Virus record (IMG/VR): IMGVR_UViG_3300028844_004824
Coordinates: 1-45,551 of that record
From: a virus
Strand: one strand, 5' to 3'
DNA: 45,551 bases
The translations under genes were made by a program, and so were the position numbers. Each line of letters opens with the position of its first letter. The first letter of the stretch is position 1. The notes under the pieces are model-generated. The model was not told where the DNA came from and ran no database searches. It saw nothing but the letters and a program-made list of their open reading frames with translations. Below are positions 17,983 through 44,515 of the stretch, piece after piece.

Positions 17983-18547
17983 TTACTACACCAGATGATA
18001 AAGTGCAACAATTTGTAATATTATCAAATAGTATTTCTCCAGAACATAGTAAGTTAGAGTCTCCAGTAGATACTCCTTTAGAAATTGACGCATAAGGATG
18101 AAGTACATTATGCTGTTCTATAGAACAATTTACACCAATAGAAGAATATGCACAGAATAAATTAAAGCTACCTATATCAGTATTTGCATTTACCAATGAA
18201 TACATTAAAAATAAATTACCAATACCCATTGTAGCGCTAATTGATTGATATGCATTAGGTGCTGATACATTAGGCCAATGATTTATTGTATGTTCGTAGT
18301 GTTCAGAGAAATGAAGATAAAATTCTTCTCTCCAATCTAAATTATCTGTTCCTATGATAAATTGAGCATTGTTAGGATATTTAAAAGTATCTACACCTTC
18401 TTCCCCAATGCAAAAAGCTTTATCATCTTTTAGGACGATAAAGCCTCCAAAATTATTTATAGAATTAGCTACCACTATTTGCTCAAACACTTCTTGAGAA
18501 AAGCTACCATTTCCAAGAATATATATTTTATTATCTATTTTATCCAT
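17975..18547 (-). CDS. NeuD-like hexapeptide acyltransferase
   Basis: 190 residues. IYILGNGSFSQEVFEQI is the N-terminal nucleotide-sugar-like Rossmann element. From about residue 105 the protein has degenerate hexapeptides (MGIGNLFLMYSLV, IGSFNLFCAYSSIGVNCSIEQHNVLHPYASIS). The usual HD or HH catalytic pair is not clear, since EQHNVLHPY holds the nearest histidines, so activity is less certain than for the protein at 15988. No good ribosome-binding site precedes the ATG at 18547, about 30 bases after the tmRNA coding piece on the same strand. Confidence 0.7.
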   Translation of the reverse strand: MDKIDNKIYILGNGSFSQEVFEQIVVANSINNFGGFIVLKDDKAFCIGEEGVDTFKYPNNAQFIIGTDNLDWREEFYLHFSEHYEHTINHWPNVSAPNAYQSISATMGIGNLFLMYSLVNANTDIGSFNLFCAYSSIGVNCSIEQHNVLHPYASISKGVSTGDSNLLCSGEILFDNITNCCTLSSGVVSD

Positions 18548-18574
18548 TTATATTTTTTATAAATAAAACCTCTG

Positions 18575-18825
18575 TTAGTAGGCCCGTTCTGTTTCTAGGT
18601 GGAACCCATACCCACCAGCATCATGCGGCTAACGCATAACCTGTAGGAGCAAAATTATCATTTGCATTTGTAGTTGTCTTACGATTAAGGTTGTTTGCAC
18701 ACCTGCTTCTCCACTTAACTATACACTACCTGTCGATCCTATTTCAGCCCCATCAAAAATACACATTATGTACTTATGGTGGAGCTGTCGGGTACTGCCC
18801 CCGAGTCCAGTTCAGCTTTCATCTT
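18575..18825 (-). ncRNA. ssrA: Circularly permuted two-piece tmRNA (alphaproteobacterial type)
   Basis: Read on the minus strand. An acceptor piece ends in CAGCTCCACCA (CCA end at 18777). A loop of about 25 bases follows and is removed on processing. The coding piece starts with GGGGCTGAAATAGGATCGACAGG at 18751. GGGGCTG pairs with CAGCTCC over 7 bp, and the third pair is G-U, the alanyl-tRNA synthetase identity pair. A T-arm stem TCGGG/CCCGA with a 7-base loop GGCAGTA is present, the loop differing from canonical TTCRAAT. A PK1-like AGGT...ACCT pairing precedes the tag frame at 18621-18665, and GGTGG...CCACC forms a hairpin after it. Outer ends are approximate; the coding piece probably ends near GAACGGGCC at about 18581. 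The 5' side touches the stop of the 61-codon gene. tmRNA rescues stalled ribosomes and tags nascent chains. Confidence 0.93.
18621..18665 (-). other. tmRNA proteolysis tag reading frame
   Basis: GCA...GCC GCA TGA encodes ANDNFAPTGYALAA and stop. The ANDNFA opening is characteristic of alphaproteobacterial tags. The terminal ALAA is the ClpXP-type degron. The GCA resume codon is assigned by analogy with other tmRNAs. Confidence 0.9.
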
Positions 18826-19004
18826 GCTTCATTGAAGCGCTTAAATTCTTTTTCAAAGCCTTCTTGAGATATATAGGCTTCTTCATTGTACCATAGTCTT
18901 TTAAAGTATGAATCATAGCTTTGTTCTATAGTCTCTTTATCCACTCCGGTTAAGTGGCCTTTTACTATATAGAAAACTCTGCATTTTTCTTTAAAAGTTA
19001 TCAT
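18819..19004 (-). CDS. Small hypothetical protein upstream of tmRNA
   Basis: 61 residues, charged and aromatic (CRVFYIVKGHLTG..., YISQEGFEKEFKRF), with no recognised family. No clear ribosome-binding site precedes the ATG at 19004. Its stop lies at the 5' edge of the tmRNA acceptor piece, so one transcript may carry both, with tmRNA released by processing. Reality of the gene is probable but not certain. Confidence 0.5.
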   Translation of the reverse strand: MITFKEKCRVFYIVKGHLTGVDKETIEQSYDSYFKRLWYNEEAYISQEGFEKEFKRFNEAR

Positions 19005-34500: not shown

Positions 34501-35433
34501 ATGGAATTTAATTTTAAAAAAACTCATCTACAAGCTATACTACATAGAGAAGATTCTACTGATTGGTGGCAAGCTATGATGGAGATGTTTCCAAAATATG
34601 ATATTACTACCCCTAGTCGTGTTGCTGGTTTTGTAGCACAAACTGCTCATGAAAGTATGAACTATAAAGTTCTCACTGAGAATTTAAACTACTCTGCCAA
34701 AGCTCTTGATGCAATATTCGGAAAATATTTTAAACGAGCAGGAGTAGATGCTCAGAAGTATCATAGACAACCTGAAAAAATAGCTAATCGTGTATATGCA
34801 GATAGAATGAAGAATGGTGATTATAGATCAGGTGATGGCTGGCGTTTTAGAGGTGGTGGTATTCTACAACTTACTGGCAGACATAACTACACAGAATTTG
34901 GCAAATCTATTGGAATGACTGCTGAAGAAGCTACTACATATGTGAGAACAAAACAAGGTGCCATTGAATCAGCATGTTGGTTCTGGAAAACTAATAATAT
35001 TAATAAATATTGTGATGCTAATGATATTGTAGGTATGACAAAACGTATTAATGGAGGAACTATTGGTCTAGCTGATAGAAAAAAACATTATGCTCATGCA
35101 ATGGAAATTTTAGGTGGTAATTATAATTTTCAAGAAGATGACGATGATGTTAAATATAAACTTTTACGAAGAGGTAGTAAAGGAGCTGCTGTCAAAAAAT
35201 TACAAGAAGCTCTTGGAGTTTCTGCTGATGGCGATTTTGGTCCTGGAACTGAGGCTGCTGTAAAAGCTTGGCAGCGAGAAAATGATTGTACTCCTGATGG
35301 CATAGCTGGGCCTCAAACTTTAGGTAAAATATTTAAACCAGAGTCTAAATCTATTCCTAAGACTCCGCCCAAACCGGCACCTAAAAAAACAACTTTAAAA
35401 CCTTCATATAGTAAAATCAGTACTAAGAAGTAA
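34501..35433 (+). CDS. Endolysin: GH19 chitinase/lysozyme domain plus peptidoglycan-binding domain
   Basis: 310 residues, AAGGAGAATAA upstream. GH19 part: FVAQTAHESMNYKVLTENLNYSA carries the catalytic Glu (E51) with a second Glu at 60. GDGWRFRGGGILQLTGRHNYTEFG and RINGGTIGLADRKKHY are standard GH19 lines. From about residue 219, LLRRGSKGAAVKKLQEALG, DGDFGPGTEAAVKAWQ and DGIAGPQTLGKIF form a PG_binding_1 repeat. A Pro/Lys-rich tail follows. It degrades the host wall from inside after holin action. No signal peptide. Confidence 0.94.
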   Translation: MEFNFKKTHLQAILHREDSTDWWQAMMEMFPKYDITTPSRVAGFVAQTAHESMNYKVLTENLNYSAKALDAIFGKYFKRAGVDAQKYHRQPEKIANRVYADRMKNGDYRSGDGWRFRGGGILQLTGRHNYTEFGKSIGMTAEEATTYVRTKQGAIESACWFWKTNNINKYCDANDIVGMTKRINGGTIGLADRKKHYAHAMEILGGNYNFQEDDDDVKYKLLRRGSKGAAVKKLQEALGVSADGDFGPGTEAAVKAWQRENDCTPDGIAGPQTLGKIFKPESKSIPKTPPKPAPKKTTLKPSYSKISTKK

Positions 35434-35434
35434 T

Positions 35435-35812
35435 ATGATGGGTGCAAAACTTAGTATTTCACTTTTAGGCATTATAGCTATTATAGGAGTTGCTTTTGCT
35501 TGGTATTTTAATAATACTCAGGCTAAAATGGCCATACTTATTGAAAATGCTGCTACACTTGAAAGTGTTACTAAATCACAAAAAGTAGCTATTGAGAATC
35601 TTGAGGCAGATGTTAAAAAGCAAGCGGCACTGTCTCAAGAGTTAAATTTACAATTGCAACAATCAGAATCAAATAACAAAAAAATAGCAACGATGTTAGC
35701 TGAAACAGATATAGTTAAAAATTCGTTGCTAGATCCTAAAGCAGTGGAGCAACGAATTAATGAAGAAATTAATATATATTTTAACAGTCTTCAGTCTCTT
35801 ACTACTGATTAG
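35435..35812 (+). CDS. Inner-membrane spanin (Rz-like)
   Basis: 125 residues. One N-terminal transmembrane helix (LLGIIAIIGVAFAWYF) is followed by a long coiled-coil region (IENLEADVKKQAALSQELNLQLQ). This is the i-spanin layout, with the periplasmic rod facing the outer membrane. Placement straight after the endolysin and a downstream lipoprotein gene starting inside its 3' end support the call. It has little sequence similarity to lambda Rz, as is usual. Confidence 0.82.
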   Translation: MMGAKLSISLLGIIAIIGVAFAWYFNNTQAKMAILIENAATLESVTKSQKVAIENLEADVKKQAALSQELNLQLQQSESNNKKIATMLAETDIVKNSLLDPKAVEQRINEEINIYFNSLQSLTTD

Positions 35813-36113
35813 TGGTTGTTCTCTTTTACAACCACAAAAAATTATTTCAGAACCAGTTGTAGTAAAATCTACAATAGCTATTGTCCCAAGACCAAGATCT
35901 ATTAATTTATACAATGCTGATATAGTTGTTATAACCGAAAATAATTTAGAAGAGGTAATTGAAGAAGTAAAAGCTAATAACGGTAATTTTGTCATATACG
36001 GATTAACTCCTCAATCATTTGAAAACCTTGCTAATAGTTTTGAAGATATAAAAAGATATGTAGAGCAAGCTAACGATGTTATGCTCTATTACGAAAAGGC
36101 CGTTACTGAATAA
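35760..36113 (+). CDS. Outer-membrane spanin lipoprotein (Rz1-like)
   Basis: 117 residues. A basic start, hydrophobic core and lipobox LLISGC with Cys20 give a lipoprotein signal. Downstream is a short proline-containing stretch (VPRPRS). It begins within the i-spanin gene in another frame, overlapping by 53 bases. With the i-spanin it would fuse inner and outer membranes at lysis. The C-terminus is longer than lambda Rz1 and has an alpha/beta look. Confidence 0.83.
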   Translation: MKKLIYILTVFSLLLLISGCSLLQPQKIISEPVVVKSTIAIVPRPRSINLYNADIVVITENNLEEVIEEVKANNGNFVIYGLTPQSFENLANSFEDIKRYVEQANDVMLYYEKAVTE

Positions 36114-38021: not shown

Positions 38022-39128
38022 ATGTATAGTAGTAGAAACTATGGAGATTATATGGAATATTACAATCAAACACAAGACGACTGGCGTATTGCTCAGTGCT
38101 GTCAATTTCACGATAAAGCATTAGTAAAACGATACAATTTAGGAACTACTACTAAAACTTACGCTTTGAAGGAAGGTGGTAAAGAACGTGTGCAAACTAA
38201 AGCCATATCAAACTGTAAAAAACTACTTGATATTATCTCTACATACTTTCCGACACAACCTAAGAATCTGCGGGCATTCCGTATATCTTCCGAGCTTCTG
38301 CCTTGCTATACTTTGGATTTCACTGCGCCATGGTATGATGAGATTCGTGACGAGATTAAAGAAATTTTGGCGGAAACTGGACGAGCAGCAAGAAAGCACT
38401 CTATACGTCTTAGTGTTCACCCTGCTCAGTATACTGTGCTCGCTAGTAATAAAGCTGATGTAGTAAAAAAATCTATTGAAGATCTAGAGTATCATGCTCT
38501 ATACGGACAGTATATGGGTATCCCTGCTGCAGAGTTCTCTATGAATATACACTTACAAGGTTTATACGGAGGAAAACACGAAGATGGTATTTCCAGGTTT
38601 GCGACTAACTTCCCCTACTTATCTGAATACGCCCAAGGATGTCTCTCAGTCGAGAACGAAGATAAGCCCAACGGCTATGACATCAAACACACACTTGAGC
38701 TTGCGCAGAGAATCCCTATACGATGCACTCTCGACACGCATCACTACGCCTGTCACAGAATGGTCGAAACAGAACGAGTCAAATTTAACGGTAAGTATGT
38801 CAACAGAAAAATTAGAGACGTTGAGCACATCACCCATACTAACGAATATTTTAGGGAAGCCGTTAAAAGTTGGAGAGGTTTACGCCCACTATTCCACGTG
38901 TCTCAGTCGTTCCCACCAGAAGATCAATCTCATTGGATGAAACCTAATGCTCATGTAGGTGAGTTTTGGGATGAAGAACTTATGGCTGCTCATGTTCCTA
39001 TGCTACAGTACGCAGACTTTGATATTGAGGCAAAACATAAAGAGATAGCTGTTCAAAGATTTTATAAATTTATACAACAGGAAGAAGAATTTGCAGGAGA
39101 AAAAGTACAATCAAAACGACTGGTGTAG
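38022..39128 (+). CDS. uvdE: UV-damage endonuclease UvdE/UvsE
   Basis: 368 residues, a TIM-barrel enzyme that nicks DNA 5' to pyrimidine dimers and other lesions. FRISSELLPCYTL, IRLSVHPAQYTVLASNKADVVKKSIEDLEYHA and LSVENEDKPNG are the standard UvdE metal-binding strands; HHYACH supplies further His ligands, and HVSQS with DFDIEAKHKEIAV closes the family pattern. An alternative start is MEYYNQTQDDW at 38052. The segment around 38580-38930 has more C-rich codons than the rest. The phage would use it to repair sunlight damage, fitting surface waters. Confidence 0.92.
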   Translation: MYSSRNYGDYMEYYNQTQDDWRIAQCCQFHDKALVKRYNLGTTTKTYALKEGGKERVQTKAISNCKKLLDIISTYFPTQPKNLRAFRISSELLPCYTLDFTAPWYDEIRDEIKEILAETGRAARKHSIRLSVHPAQYTVLASNKADVVKKSIEDLEYHALYGQYMGIPAAEFSMNIHLQGLYGGKHEDGISRFATNFPYLSEYAQGCLSVENEDKPNGYDIKHTLELAQRIPIRCTLDTHHYACHRMVETERVKFNGKYVNRKIRDVEHITHTNEYFREAVKSWRGLRPLFHVSQSFPPEDQSHWMKPNAHVGEFWDEELMAAHVPMLQYADFDIEAKHKEIAVQRFYKFIQQEEEFAGEKVQSKRLV

Positions 39129-40835: not shown

Positions 40836-40962
40836 AATTGACTCTGGGAGAAGTGGGTAAATCTTCACGCTTTTTAAATTATTTTATAATAAACTATTAG
40901 TGGTAATAACTCTTAAAAACTAAAAATTTTGGACACTAATTAAAAATAAGTTATAATCAGAG

Positions 40963-40970
40963 TATAAATA
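40963..40970 (+). promoter_or_regulatory. T4-type late promoter
   Basis: TATAAATA, the exact T4 late consensus, 17 bases before the ATG at 40987. It would be read by sigma factor gp55-like plus clamp, and it heads the run of small basic proteins. Confidence 0.82.
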
Positions 40971-40986: not shown

Positions 40987-41286
40987 ATGGCCCCTAGAAT
41001 ACCCCGTAAGAAAGGACAGAGGCGAAATTCTAAATCGCACTCTGACTTGTATACAGATGAAAATCCTAAAGGTACTATTAAAGGTTTGGGTTTTGCTACG
41101 GTTAAAAGTGCTAGCACTTCTGTGGCTAAAATTAAAGCTTCTAGTAGGTCTCATGAGCATAAAACGCAAGCAGCGATAGCTATGGAACAACGAGCAAAAG
41201 AAATGGGTAAAGTATCTGCTGCTAGAGTTTATAGAACTTTCATAAATCAACAAAAGAAAATTACTGCAAAACGTAATGCAAAATGA
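40987..41286 (+). CDS. Conserved marine T4-like phage small basic protein
   Basis: 99 residues. TTGGAGTTGAT precedes the ATG. RKKGQRRNSKSHSDLYTDENPKGTIKGLGFA and RSHEHKTQAAIAMEQRAKEMGK match a pattern widespread in marine T4-like phages (TDENPKGTIKGL.FA......S......SH.HK.QAA.AMEQRA). Its function is not known; late expression and basic charge suggest a packaged virion protein. Confidence 0.72.
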   Translation: MAPRIPRKKGQRRNSKSHSDLYTDENPKGTIKGLGFATVKSASTSVAKIKASSRSHEHKTQAAIAMEQRAKEMGKVSAARVYRTFINQQKKITAKRNAK

Positions 41287-41298
41287 TAGGAGTCTTAA

Positions 41299-41385
41299 AT
41301 GACCTGTGATTGTAAATGTCAATGTAAGGGAAAACTTGATTGTAGTTGTACTTGTAGTGACTGCACGTGTTGTAAATCAGAGTAA
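41299..41385 (+). CDS. Metallothionein-like 28-residue cysteine-rich peptide
   Basis: ATG at 41299 with AGGAG six bases upstream, and stop TAA at 41383. Ten of 28 residues are cysteine: CDCKCQC at positions 3-9, and CSCTCSDCTCC at 15-25. Cys alternates with other residues (C-x-C) as in metallothioneins and other thiolate-cluster peptides, linked by KGKLD. No signal peptide. It could bind Zn, Cu or Cd, store metal or quench oxidants, but no database match is known to me. It sits within the late run, with no gap issue. Confidence 0.75.
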   Translation: MTCDCKCQCKGKLDCSCTCSDCTCCKSE

Positions 41386-41389
41386 ATAA

Positions 41390-41554
41390 ATGGCTAAGAA
41401 ACCAACTAAGAAAAAATCATCAACACCTACTAATCCTAAATTATATGCAAAAGTAAAGTCTGAAGCTAAACGTAAGTTTGATGTGTACCCTTCTGCATAT
41501 GCTAATGGGTGGTTAGTAAGAACCTATAAATCTCGCGGCGGTGGTTATAGATAA
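41390..41554 (+). CDS. DUF5872-like small basic protein
   Basis: 54 residues from ATG at 41390, very basic. PKLYAKVKSEAKRKFDVYPSAYANGWLVRTYK followed by RGGGYR is a widespread marine phage motif of the DUF5872 kind. Four bases separate it from the Cys-rich peptide, and one base overlaps the next gene. Probably a virion-packaged DNA-binding peptide; function not established. Confidence 0.72.
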   Translation: MAKKPTKKKSSTPTNPKLYAKVKSEAKRKFDVYPSAYANGWLVRTYKSRGGGYR

Positions 41555-41847
41555 TGGCTAAACCTAGAGGTGGTTTAAGCGCATGGTTTGGAAAAGGATC
41601 TAAGGGAGACTGGGTTAATATCGGTGCCCCTAAAAAAGATGGAAAATTTCAACCTTGCGGCAGAAAAACATCTAAAAAAGGTAAGTATCCAAAATGTGTA
41701 CCAAGATCAAAAGCTAATAGTATGACTGCTGCAGAAATTAGAAGTGCGGTTACAAGAAAAAGAGCTGCAGGTAACCCTGGCGGTAAACCTACAAATGTAA
41801 AAACTTTTACAAAGCGTGGTAAGTCTAGTGCCACAAAAAAGAAATAA
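41554..41847 (+). CDS. DUF5872-like small basic protein (second)
   Basis: 97 residues. GGLSAWFGKGSKGDWVNIGAPKKDGKFQPCGRK, then KYPKCVPRSKANSMTAAEIRSAVTRKRAAGNPGGKPTNV is a familiar phage and metagenome pattern (W.dI..pk..G.f.pCGr......yPKC.P..kA..Mt...r..av.rKraag). Two Cys in CGRK and PKCVP could bind metal. Shares the first base with the previous stop. Function unknown. Confidence 0.75.
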   Translation: MAKPRGGLSAWFGKGSKGDWVNIGAPKKDGKFQPCGRKTSKKGKYPKCVPRSKANSMTAAEIRSAVTRKRAAGNPGGKPTNVKTFTKRGKSSATKKK

Positions 41848-41870: not shown

Positions 41871-42047
41871 ATGGCTATGCATAAAAATGGAATGGGTAAA
41901 AAAGCTAACATGAAATCAAAAAAAGTTGGAAAAGGCCCAATGAAAGCTATGAATGGTAATAAGAAAAATGGTAATGGCGGATTGACTGCTGCACAGAAAA
42001 AATTACCACCAGCTCTTCAAAAAGCAATTCTTAAGAAGAAAAAATAA
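41871..42047 (+). CDS. Small lysine-rich protein
   Basis: 58 residues from ATG at 41871 (AGGAAAGAGAG some twelve bases upstream). The end, LTAAQKKLPPALQKAILKKK, is a motif found on many phage small proteins. About a third of residues are Lys. Probably binds DNA or is packaged. It shares its last base with the next start. Confidence 0.65.
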   Translation: MAMHKNGMGKKANMKSKKVGKGPMKAMNGNKKNGNGGLTAAQKKLPPALQKAILKKKK

Positions 42048-43650: not shown

Positions 43651-43937
43651 ACAAATCCACAAAAGCACAAAGATTAGCTGCTCATAATGAGTGGCTAATG
43701 TTGTATGGAGCACACCCCTCTCAAACAAATCGCAAAACTCGGTGCAAACCTGCTAGAGAAAAATTTAAAATTGCTAAAAGTGTCACTTCTGATACTATAG
43801 GTAATGGAATTAAAAACCAAAATAAAGTGTATAGTGGTGAAAATGACTTTGTTCTTGGACTAGCGTATAATAAAGGTAATCTACAACCTCTGACACTTAA
43901 AGAAGTGGCAGACCCAGCAGTTGGAAAACGCAGATGA
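43647..43937 (+). CDS. Hypothetical basic protein
   Basis: 96 residues. MNKSTKAQRLAAHNEWLMLYGAHPSQTNRKTRCKPAREKFKI reads as a helical, Arg/Lys-rich protein; no motif recognised. ATGA overlaps on both sides (4 bases), so translation is coupled to its neighbours. Function unknown. Confidence 0.6.
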   Translation: MNKSTKAQRLAAHNEWLMLYGAHPSQTNRKTRCKPAREKFKIAKSVTSDTIGNGIKNQNKVYSGENDFVLGLAYNKGNLQPLTLKEVADPAVGKRR

Positions 43938-44515
43938 ATAGTATTATGAAAGCTGAATGGCAACATTATGCAAGAGTCTCTTTAGACACTTACATACAAT
44001 TTGTAAATGAAGAAATATTTCCTAAATTTACACTTAATAAGTGTAACTTTGATTGGAGTCCTTCACGTCGTAGTTCAAGAGGGGGTTGGTATGCTGACGG
44101 TCCTGGCATTAATATGGCTATGCACCATTATTGCAGAAATTATACAAAACCTACTTTAATTCGTGTATATGAATATAAATCTTTTGATAACAGTTCTGTT
44201 ATTGGAGGATTTTATACGAAAGATAAATATCAAAAACTTGAGATGGTGCTTTTGCACGAACTATCTCATGCAGTTCAGTATTATACTTATAAGGTTAATA
44301 ATATTAGATGTAAACCTCATGGCCCTGTCTGGAAAAATATTTATTCTAGACTTAGAGAACAATTTCTTAATCCGTGTCTAGGTGATCAAGTTGCACTAAA
44401 AACTGAATATAATAAAGATATAGATAGTTTAGGTAGGAATAGTAAATCAACTATACCTCTTGCTACTAAGAAAGAGTTGGATAAATTATTTGCAAGAGCC
44501 GCCAATAAAAGTTAA
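43934..44515 (+). CDS. SprT-like zinc metalloprotease
   Basis: 193 residues. MVLLHELSHAVQYY gives HExxH, and KPHGPVWKNIYSRL supplies the third ligand His, the SprT pattern. The N-terminus resembles the family helix before the motif. Relatives (SprT, SPRTN) cut proteins stuck to DNA. A role in processing DNA-protein crosslinks or virion proteins is possible. It overlaps the second radical SAM gene. Confidence 0.82.
   Translation: MNSIMKAEWQHYARVSLDTYIQFVNEEIFPKFTLNKCNFDWSPSRRSSRGGWYADGPGINMAMHHYCRNYTKPTLIRVYEYKSFDNSSVIGGFYTKDKYQKLEMVLLHELSHAVQYYTYKVNNIRCKPHGPVWKNIYSRLREQFLNPCLGDQVALKTEYNKDIDSLGRNSKSTIPLATKKELDKLFARAANKS

Follow-up and report, generated by a model that had tools for sequence, protein, structure and literature searches.

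The cysteine-rich reading frame at 41299..41385 (+) of the window, the whole 45.6 kb virus record that was analysed, is probably a genuine phage gene that was gained recently and encodes a metallothionein-like peptide, whose expression and metal binding are predicted from the sequence. The product would most likely be a translated metal-thiolate peptide. This explanation was preferred because of the composition and motifs of the peptide, its 10 Cys against a shuffle maximum of 7, its AGGAG site and its tight fit between genes. It is also based on an independent, constrained peptide family that has the same main cysteine spacing and often lies 5' of a DUF5872 gene, and on bridging cysteine-rich peptides in two phages closely related to that of the window (L009/G019 and L004/G016).

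Cysteine-rich reading frame and its gene module

The translation of 41299..41385 (+) is MTCDCKCQCKGKLDCSCTCSDCTCCKSE, followed by a stop. Cysteine accounts for 10 of the 28 residues (36%), arranged as CxCxCxC-x5-CxCxC-x2-CxCC, and beyond cysteine the peptide holds little but Lys, Ser, Thr and Asp. There is no aromatic residue and no His (Phe, Trp, Tyr and His are all absent), and the net charge is about 0. The ribosome-binding site AGGAG lies at 41288..41292 (+), 6 bases 5' of the ATG. The upstream gene stops at 41286, which is 12 bases 5' of the same ATG, only 4 bases separate the stop of the frame from the start of the downstream DUF5872 gene, and no longer reading frame was found over 41299..41385. 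The original prediction had described a 28-residue C-x-C peptide with 10 Cys, encoded by a clean frame with an AGGAG site and set snugly between genes, and both descriptions were borne out.

The cysteine content of the frame was confirmed to be above chance composition. When the whole window was shuffled 60 times with dinucleotides preserved, the maximum number of Cys per open 28-codon stretch was 5 in 35 shuffles, 6 in 23 and 7 in the remaining 2, against the 10 observed. Cysteine averages 1.6% in the large ORFs of the window. The Cys codons of the frame (9 TGT, 1 TGC) match the local preference, the large ORFs having 155 TGT and 18 TGC, and the coding DNA holds the hexamer-like string TGTAGT/TGTACT/TGTAGT.

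The frame takes second place in an operon of small basic-protein genes, in the order U, peptide, DUF5872 and D2. Gene U (40987..41286, +) encodes a 99-aa basic protein with a weak phrog_727 match, which is homologous to part of the cyanophage T4-GC_119 proteins. The DUF5872 gene D1 (PF19197; 41390..41554, +) encodes 54 aa and is without a strong ribosome-binding site of its own; since the only strong site in the gap is that of the cysteine-rich frame, the translation of DUF5872 would be coupled. It is followed by D2 (41554..41847, +), a 97-aa basic protein of phrog_23735, and by D3 (41871..42047, +), a 58-aa basic protein that is kept in relatives of the module. A 108-aa ORF and then a lipase-3 protein lie 3' of D3. 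Upstream of U, a sigma-70-like promoter TGGACA-16-TATAAT at 40930..40957 (+) agrees at 11/12 positions, as a consensus match only. The T4-type late promoter consensus TATAAATA is matched at 40963..40970 (+); it occurs 18 times in the window against 15.4 expected, a count which is not significant alone.

The placement of the frame in a phage late gene run, as claimed earlier, is plausible. Homologues of the flanking genes are found among gp15/gp16/gp17 or head genes in cultured T4-like cyanophages. In S-SM2, the gene of the T4-GC_119 protein that U resembles in part is flanked by the genes of the two terminase subunits, small and large; in S-BM3 it follows the small terminase gene, and in P-TIM68 it is close to the major head protein. 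In addition, gp23 is present on 3 long contigs carrying U. In the window itself, no virion gene was identified beside the cysteine-rich frame.

Other genes of the window were also recognised. A permuted alphaproteobacterial-type tmRNA gene at 18530-18877 (-), with the tag ANDNFAPTGYALAA (RF01849, 108.9 bits; RF04321, 127.3 bits), is likewise present in the close relative G016 (121.4 bits), and such a gene in a phage points to an alphaproteobacterial host. The lysis cassette at 34501-36113 (+) comprises a GH19-like endolysin with a peptidoglycan-binding domain and, 3' of it, a membrane protein and a lipoprotein resembling overlapping spanins. A UvdE UV-damage endonuclease is encoded at 38022-39128 (+) (PF03851, E 2.5e-33) and is 77-96% identical in relatives. 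A SprT-like metalloprotease gene (PF10263) at 43934-44515 (+) belongs to the same gene run as the cysteine-rich frame.

Copies of the frame and a cysteine-peptide family of marine phages

Outside the window record, the peptide was found only in L082/L280, with 100% DNA identity over 4275 bases, and in L281, which aligned over 8408 bases with one gap and no mismatch. By this identity the contigs are the same virus as the window; every copy of the frame that was found is identical, and no relative of the peptide was found outside its own virus. Conservation of the frame among relatives, one of the two tests that the original prediction had set, failed at this locus. In the nearest relatives (L002, L003, L005 and L006) the frame is absent and U abuts D1, and L006, without the frame, has a 96% identical UvdE. 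The absence points to a recent, strain-specific event: the window lineage gained the frame, or the other lineages lost it. It was not taken as refuting function, because comparable cysteine-rich ORFs recur in the same module elsewhere. Searches by tblastn with the cysteine-rich peptides against cultured phages gave no match for most of them and matches at E>=2 for one, which is a weak negative since BLAST masks low complexity.

A family of cysteine peptides was obtained by scanning for the window cysteine spacing, filtering for complexity and overlapping frames, and then searching with an alignment. The convincing non-self survivors of the spacing scan were L161, L211 and L364, which form one group, and L213 was a fourth survivor. 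In each of the three, a peptide of 44-46 aa lies immediately 5' of a DUF5872 gene. Their alignment drew 77 marine viral loci (L366-L442) with 46 distinct peptides of 31-67 aa, having the core C-x2-CGCxCHC-x(2-5)-CxCxC-x2-C-x-H and usually an acidic tail. The invariant positions in a 12-sequence alignment were C-x2-C-G-C-x-C-H-C, C-x-C-x-C and x2-C-x-H. Pairwise comparisons in this CGCxCHC family revealed Cys changes in 0 of 686 cases against 305 of 2498 at other positions, together with 98 synonymous TGT/TGC switches. The pN/pS ratio was 0.10-0.16 in the deeper clusters and 0.35-0.85 in shallow clusters with few changes. Judged by these substitutions, the members of the family are real genes, kept by purifying selection.

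DUF5872 follows the peptide gene immediately in 37 of the 77 loci (gaps of -8 to 14 bases), and DUF5872, D2 or U lies within the fetched stretch in 58 of the 77. No Pfam model matched the family and the PHROGs matches were non-significant only; the family is new and uncatalogued. The earlier statement that no phage family of this kind is known thus holds for the catalogues, while a diverse and constrained family does exist in uncultured marine phages.

The possibility that the window peptide is a distant true member of this family by descent, moved as a cassette with DUF5872, is compatible with the best explanation and is considered doubtful. The cysteine spacing is 1-1-1-5-1-1-2-1-0 in the window peptide against 2-1-1-1-5-1-1-2 in the family. 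The spacing CxCxCxC-x5-CxCxC-x2-C is common to the window peptide and L366/L391 and argues for descent, but this match has a circular element, as the same spacing had served to find the family. The slot also agrees, the window peptide lying immediately 5' of DUF5872 (4-base gap) as in the 37 loci, in a module with U and D2. Among about 80 DUF5872 loci fetched regardless of Cys, a cysteine-rich neighbour was present only in the window virus. The core argues against descent: the window peptide has CDCKCQC and not CGCxCHC, it is without the C-x2 before the core, the His after the last Cys and the usual acidic tail, and it adds CxCC.

Comparison with the CGCxCHC profile among 95,260 ORFs gave no match for the window peptide at E<=1. 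Its raw score was equalled by 5-7% of its own shuffles, and still by 2% when the bridging sequences were added to the profile, which weighs against descent, whereas its best pairwise alignments (L366 and L391) were matched in only 48 and 54 of 5000 shuffles of the peptide, about 1%. The bridging peptides favour descent. L009/G019 and L004/G016, close relatives of the window phage, carry the cysteine-rich peptides MDKCTCEKCGCDCHCNWDSCNCGCDVCDCG... and MTETKNCNKCGCSCHCKWDSC...CGCDICDCG... elsewhere in their contigs. L571/L572 in G019 reached E=1.1e-4 against the profile, and L573 in G016 is their 65% identical counterpart; both contain the core of the family and also a C-terminal C-x2-C-x-C resembling that of the window peptide. 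Most Cys that align between the two are conserved, and several Cys codons differ synonymously. Since the window peptide has no Gly/His core and no significant profile score, it is called here an analogue or a very divergent relative of the CGCxCHC family and is not filed as a member.

The gene of the L571/L572 and L573 peptides is no more than 1 small gene away from an ORF of 362-369 aa, and a lysozyme-like ORF is nearby. The 362-369 aa ORF appears by eye to be a degenerate Rieske-type oxygenase, with no Pfam match in its first 130 residues.

Further cysteine-rich ORFs were observed in marine viral contigs of the collection. A 42-aa ORF at 1031-1159 of L014 (MYKCVKEDCNCLVEEEFTHCSHDCQDGNNCGCEGCDCGSEDS) is flanked by a 56-aa gene and by U, in a relative that has this module; it resembles bacterial metallothioneins by eye, yet it has no PF02069 match. 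In L023 and L076, ORFs of 41-44 aa gave CGCxCHC family scores that were equalled by only 1-2 of 4000 shuffles. The gene of a 26-aa, 8-Cys peptide (MSCECGCPPDCGCTEESNCGCKCWE-) in L483 (883-963) and L569 is directly 3' of an 80-aa ORF, ferredoxin-like by eye, and 5' of a probable membrane-protein gene. Together with the window and CGCxCHC types, these indicate several kinds of short cysteine-rich genes in marine phages.

The matches to the generic CxC pattern were mostly out-of-frame or antisense readings of repeats and were discarded. L570 was rejected as antisense to a 125-aa Gln/Ala-rich ORF, and L282, the sole match in bacterial and archaeal genome contigs, as not cysteine-rich beyond the pattern. 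L160 and L337 have DUF5872 and no real cysteine peptide. Among the translated genes of the cultured DUF5872 phages HTVC023P, HTVC106P, HTVC027P, 023Pt_psg01, P-SCSP2, CRP-2, C72C1 and C75C1, no cysteine-rich neighbour was present.

Proposed function and alternative explanations

The cysteine-rich frame would be translated with its operon, and the translation of DUF5872 would be coupled to it. The peptide, unstructured when reduced, is predicted to fold around metal via its Cys thiolates. By analogy with known metallothionein clusters, the predicted load for 10 Cys is about 3 Zn(II)/Cd(II) or about 6 Cu(I). The peptide may buffer or sequester such metal in the infected cell, and the likeliest benefit would be that free Zn/Cu is kept low, or that Zn is supplied, as host metal homeostasis fails late in infection. 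A metal store in the virion and protection from host redox defence, both raised in the original prediction, are speculative further roles.

The main rival explanation is a metal-dependent structural or adaptor micro-protein, Zn- or disulfide-folded, that acts together with the basic proteins DUF5872, D2 and U, for instance on DNA or as part of the virion. The recurrence of such cysteine-rich peptides beside DUF5872/D2/U is consistent with this role, as are the homologues of the neighbours among virion genes in cyanophages, and the CGCxCHC motif with the H after the last Cys forms a conserved non-Cys core that is more specific than a metal sink needs. The window peptide itself, however, is without that core and is built largely of Cys, Lys, Ser, Thr and Asp, and DUF5872 genes are usually without such a partner, including in cultured phages; the adaptor role is regarded as unlikely. 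A disulfide-rich secreted or toxin-like peptide would be suggested by the high Cys content only and is extremely improbable: there is no signal sequence and no hydrophobic stretch, and the reducing cytoplasm would be the site of synthesis. The peptide's CxC and CC spacing is that typically seen in metal clusters and not in disulfide-knotted peptides.

Several observations count against a metallothionein-like gene. The frame is unique to its own virus and absent in the nearest relatives, the selection signal being that of the CGCxCHC family alone; the similarity to the CGCxCHC profile is not significant and no Pfam metallothionein model matches; and expansion of TGTNNN hexamers could have lengthened the cysteine string. 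An ORF that arose by chance or has no function, produced by such expansion within about 100 bases of recently inserted DNA, would accord with the lack of the ORF in the nearest relatives, with the origin of all copies found from one virus and with the hexamer-like coding DNA, and most CxC strings in the collection are out-of-frame repeat artefacts. This origin is nevertheless quite improbable in view of the well-placed ribosome-binding site, the non-overlapping fit with no longer overlapping frame, a count of 10 Cys far above the shuffles, and the repeated presence of cysteine-rich ORFs in this module across other phages.

The metallothionein-like reading implies that phages may make metal-binding peptides of this kind of their own. 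If this is true, control of Zn/Cu in infection becomes a directly testable phage function. The peptides of the CGCxCHC family, conserved and absent from the catalogues, are of a length that can be synthesised. Such genes are missed by standard phage annotation because of their length and low complexity. It is put forward only tentatively that several unrelated marine phage groups repeatedly acquire and swap metallothionein-like micro-genes (window, CGCxCHC, L014 and MSCECGCPPDCGC types), in which case metal or thiol buffering would be a general, unnoticed part of seawater phage infection.

Comparison with known metallothioneins and small proteins

Metallothionein-like is the best reading of the window peptide as judged from its residues. 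Metallothioneins are generally below 7 kDa with at least about 30% Cys, and the window peptide is of such size and composition (28 residues, 36%); it also has their motifs CxCxCxC, CxCxC, CxxC and CC and no aromatics. No curated family of Pfam, PHROGs, NCBIfam or PDB covers it, and the Pfam metallothionein models gave no match. PF02069 was found at E<=10 in 0 of 16 viral records (the window and 15 others) and above the cut-off in 1 of 14 control genomes.

The short fungal copper metallothioneins of the Neurospora crassa type have about 26-28 residues, CxC-x5-CxC type spacing and no aromatics, and the window peptide resembles them in all three respects. It differs in having 10 Cys and not 7, in being Lys/Asp-rich rather than Gly/Ser/Asn-rich, and in matching no Pfam model, and there is no phylogenetic link. 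With the bacterial metallothioneins (SmtA/BmtA/PmtA, PF02069) it shares small size, high Cys content and the lack of a large hydrophobic core, and thiolate binding of Zn/Cd/Cu is assumed. In contrast to them it has no match to the PF02069 model, which spans 51 positions, and no His, while PF02069 proteins contain His ligands. PmtA is reported as a stress protein in the management of oxidative stress and phagocytosis (PMC11237414).

Like the phage small proteins in general, of which selected ones are described in a review (PMC11323111), the window gene is short and below the usual annotation limit. No paper naming a phage metallothionein was found in the literature searched, most subscription journals being outside it. 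Metallothionein-like peptides are rated here as known in kind; what is new is their setting in a phage and the CGCxCHC family, which no catalogue lists.
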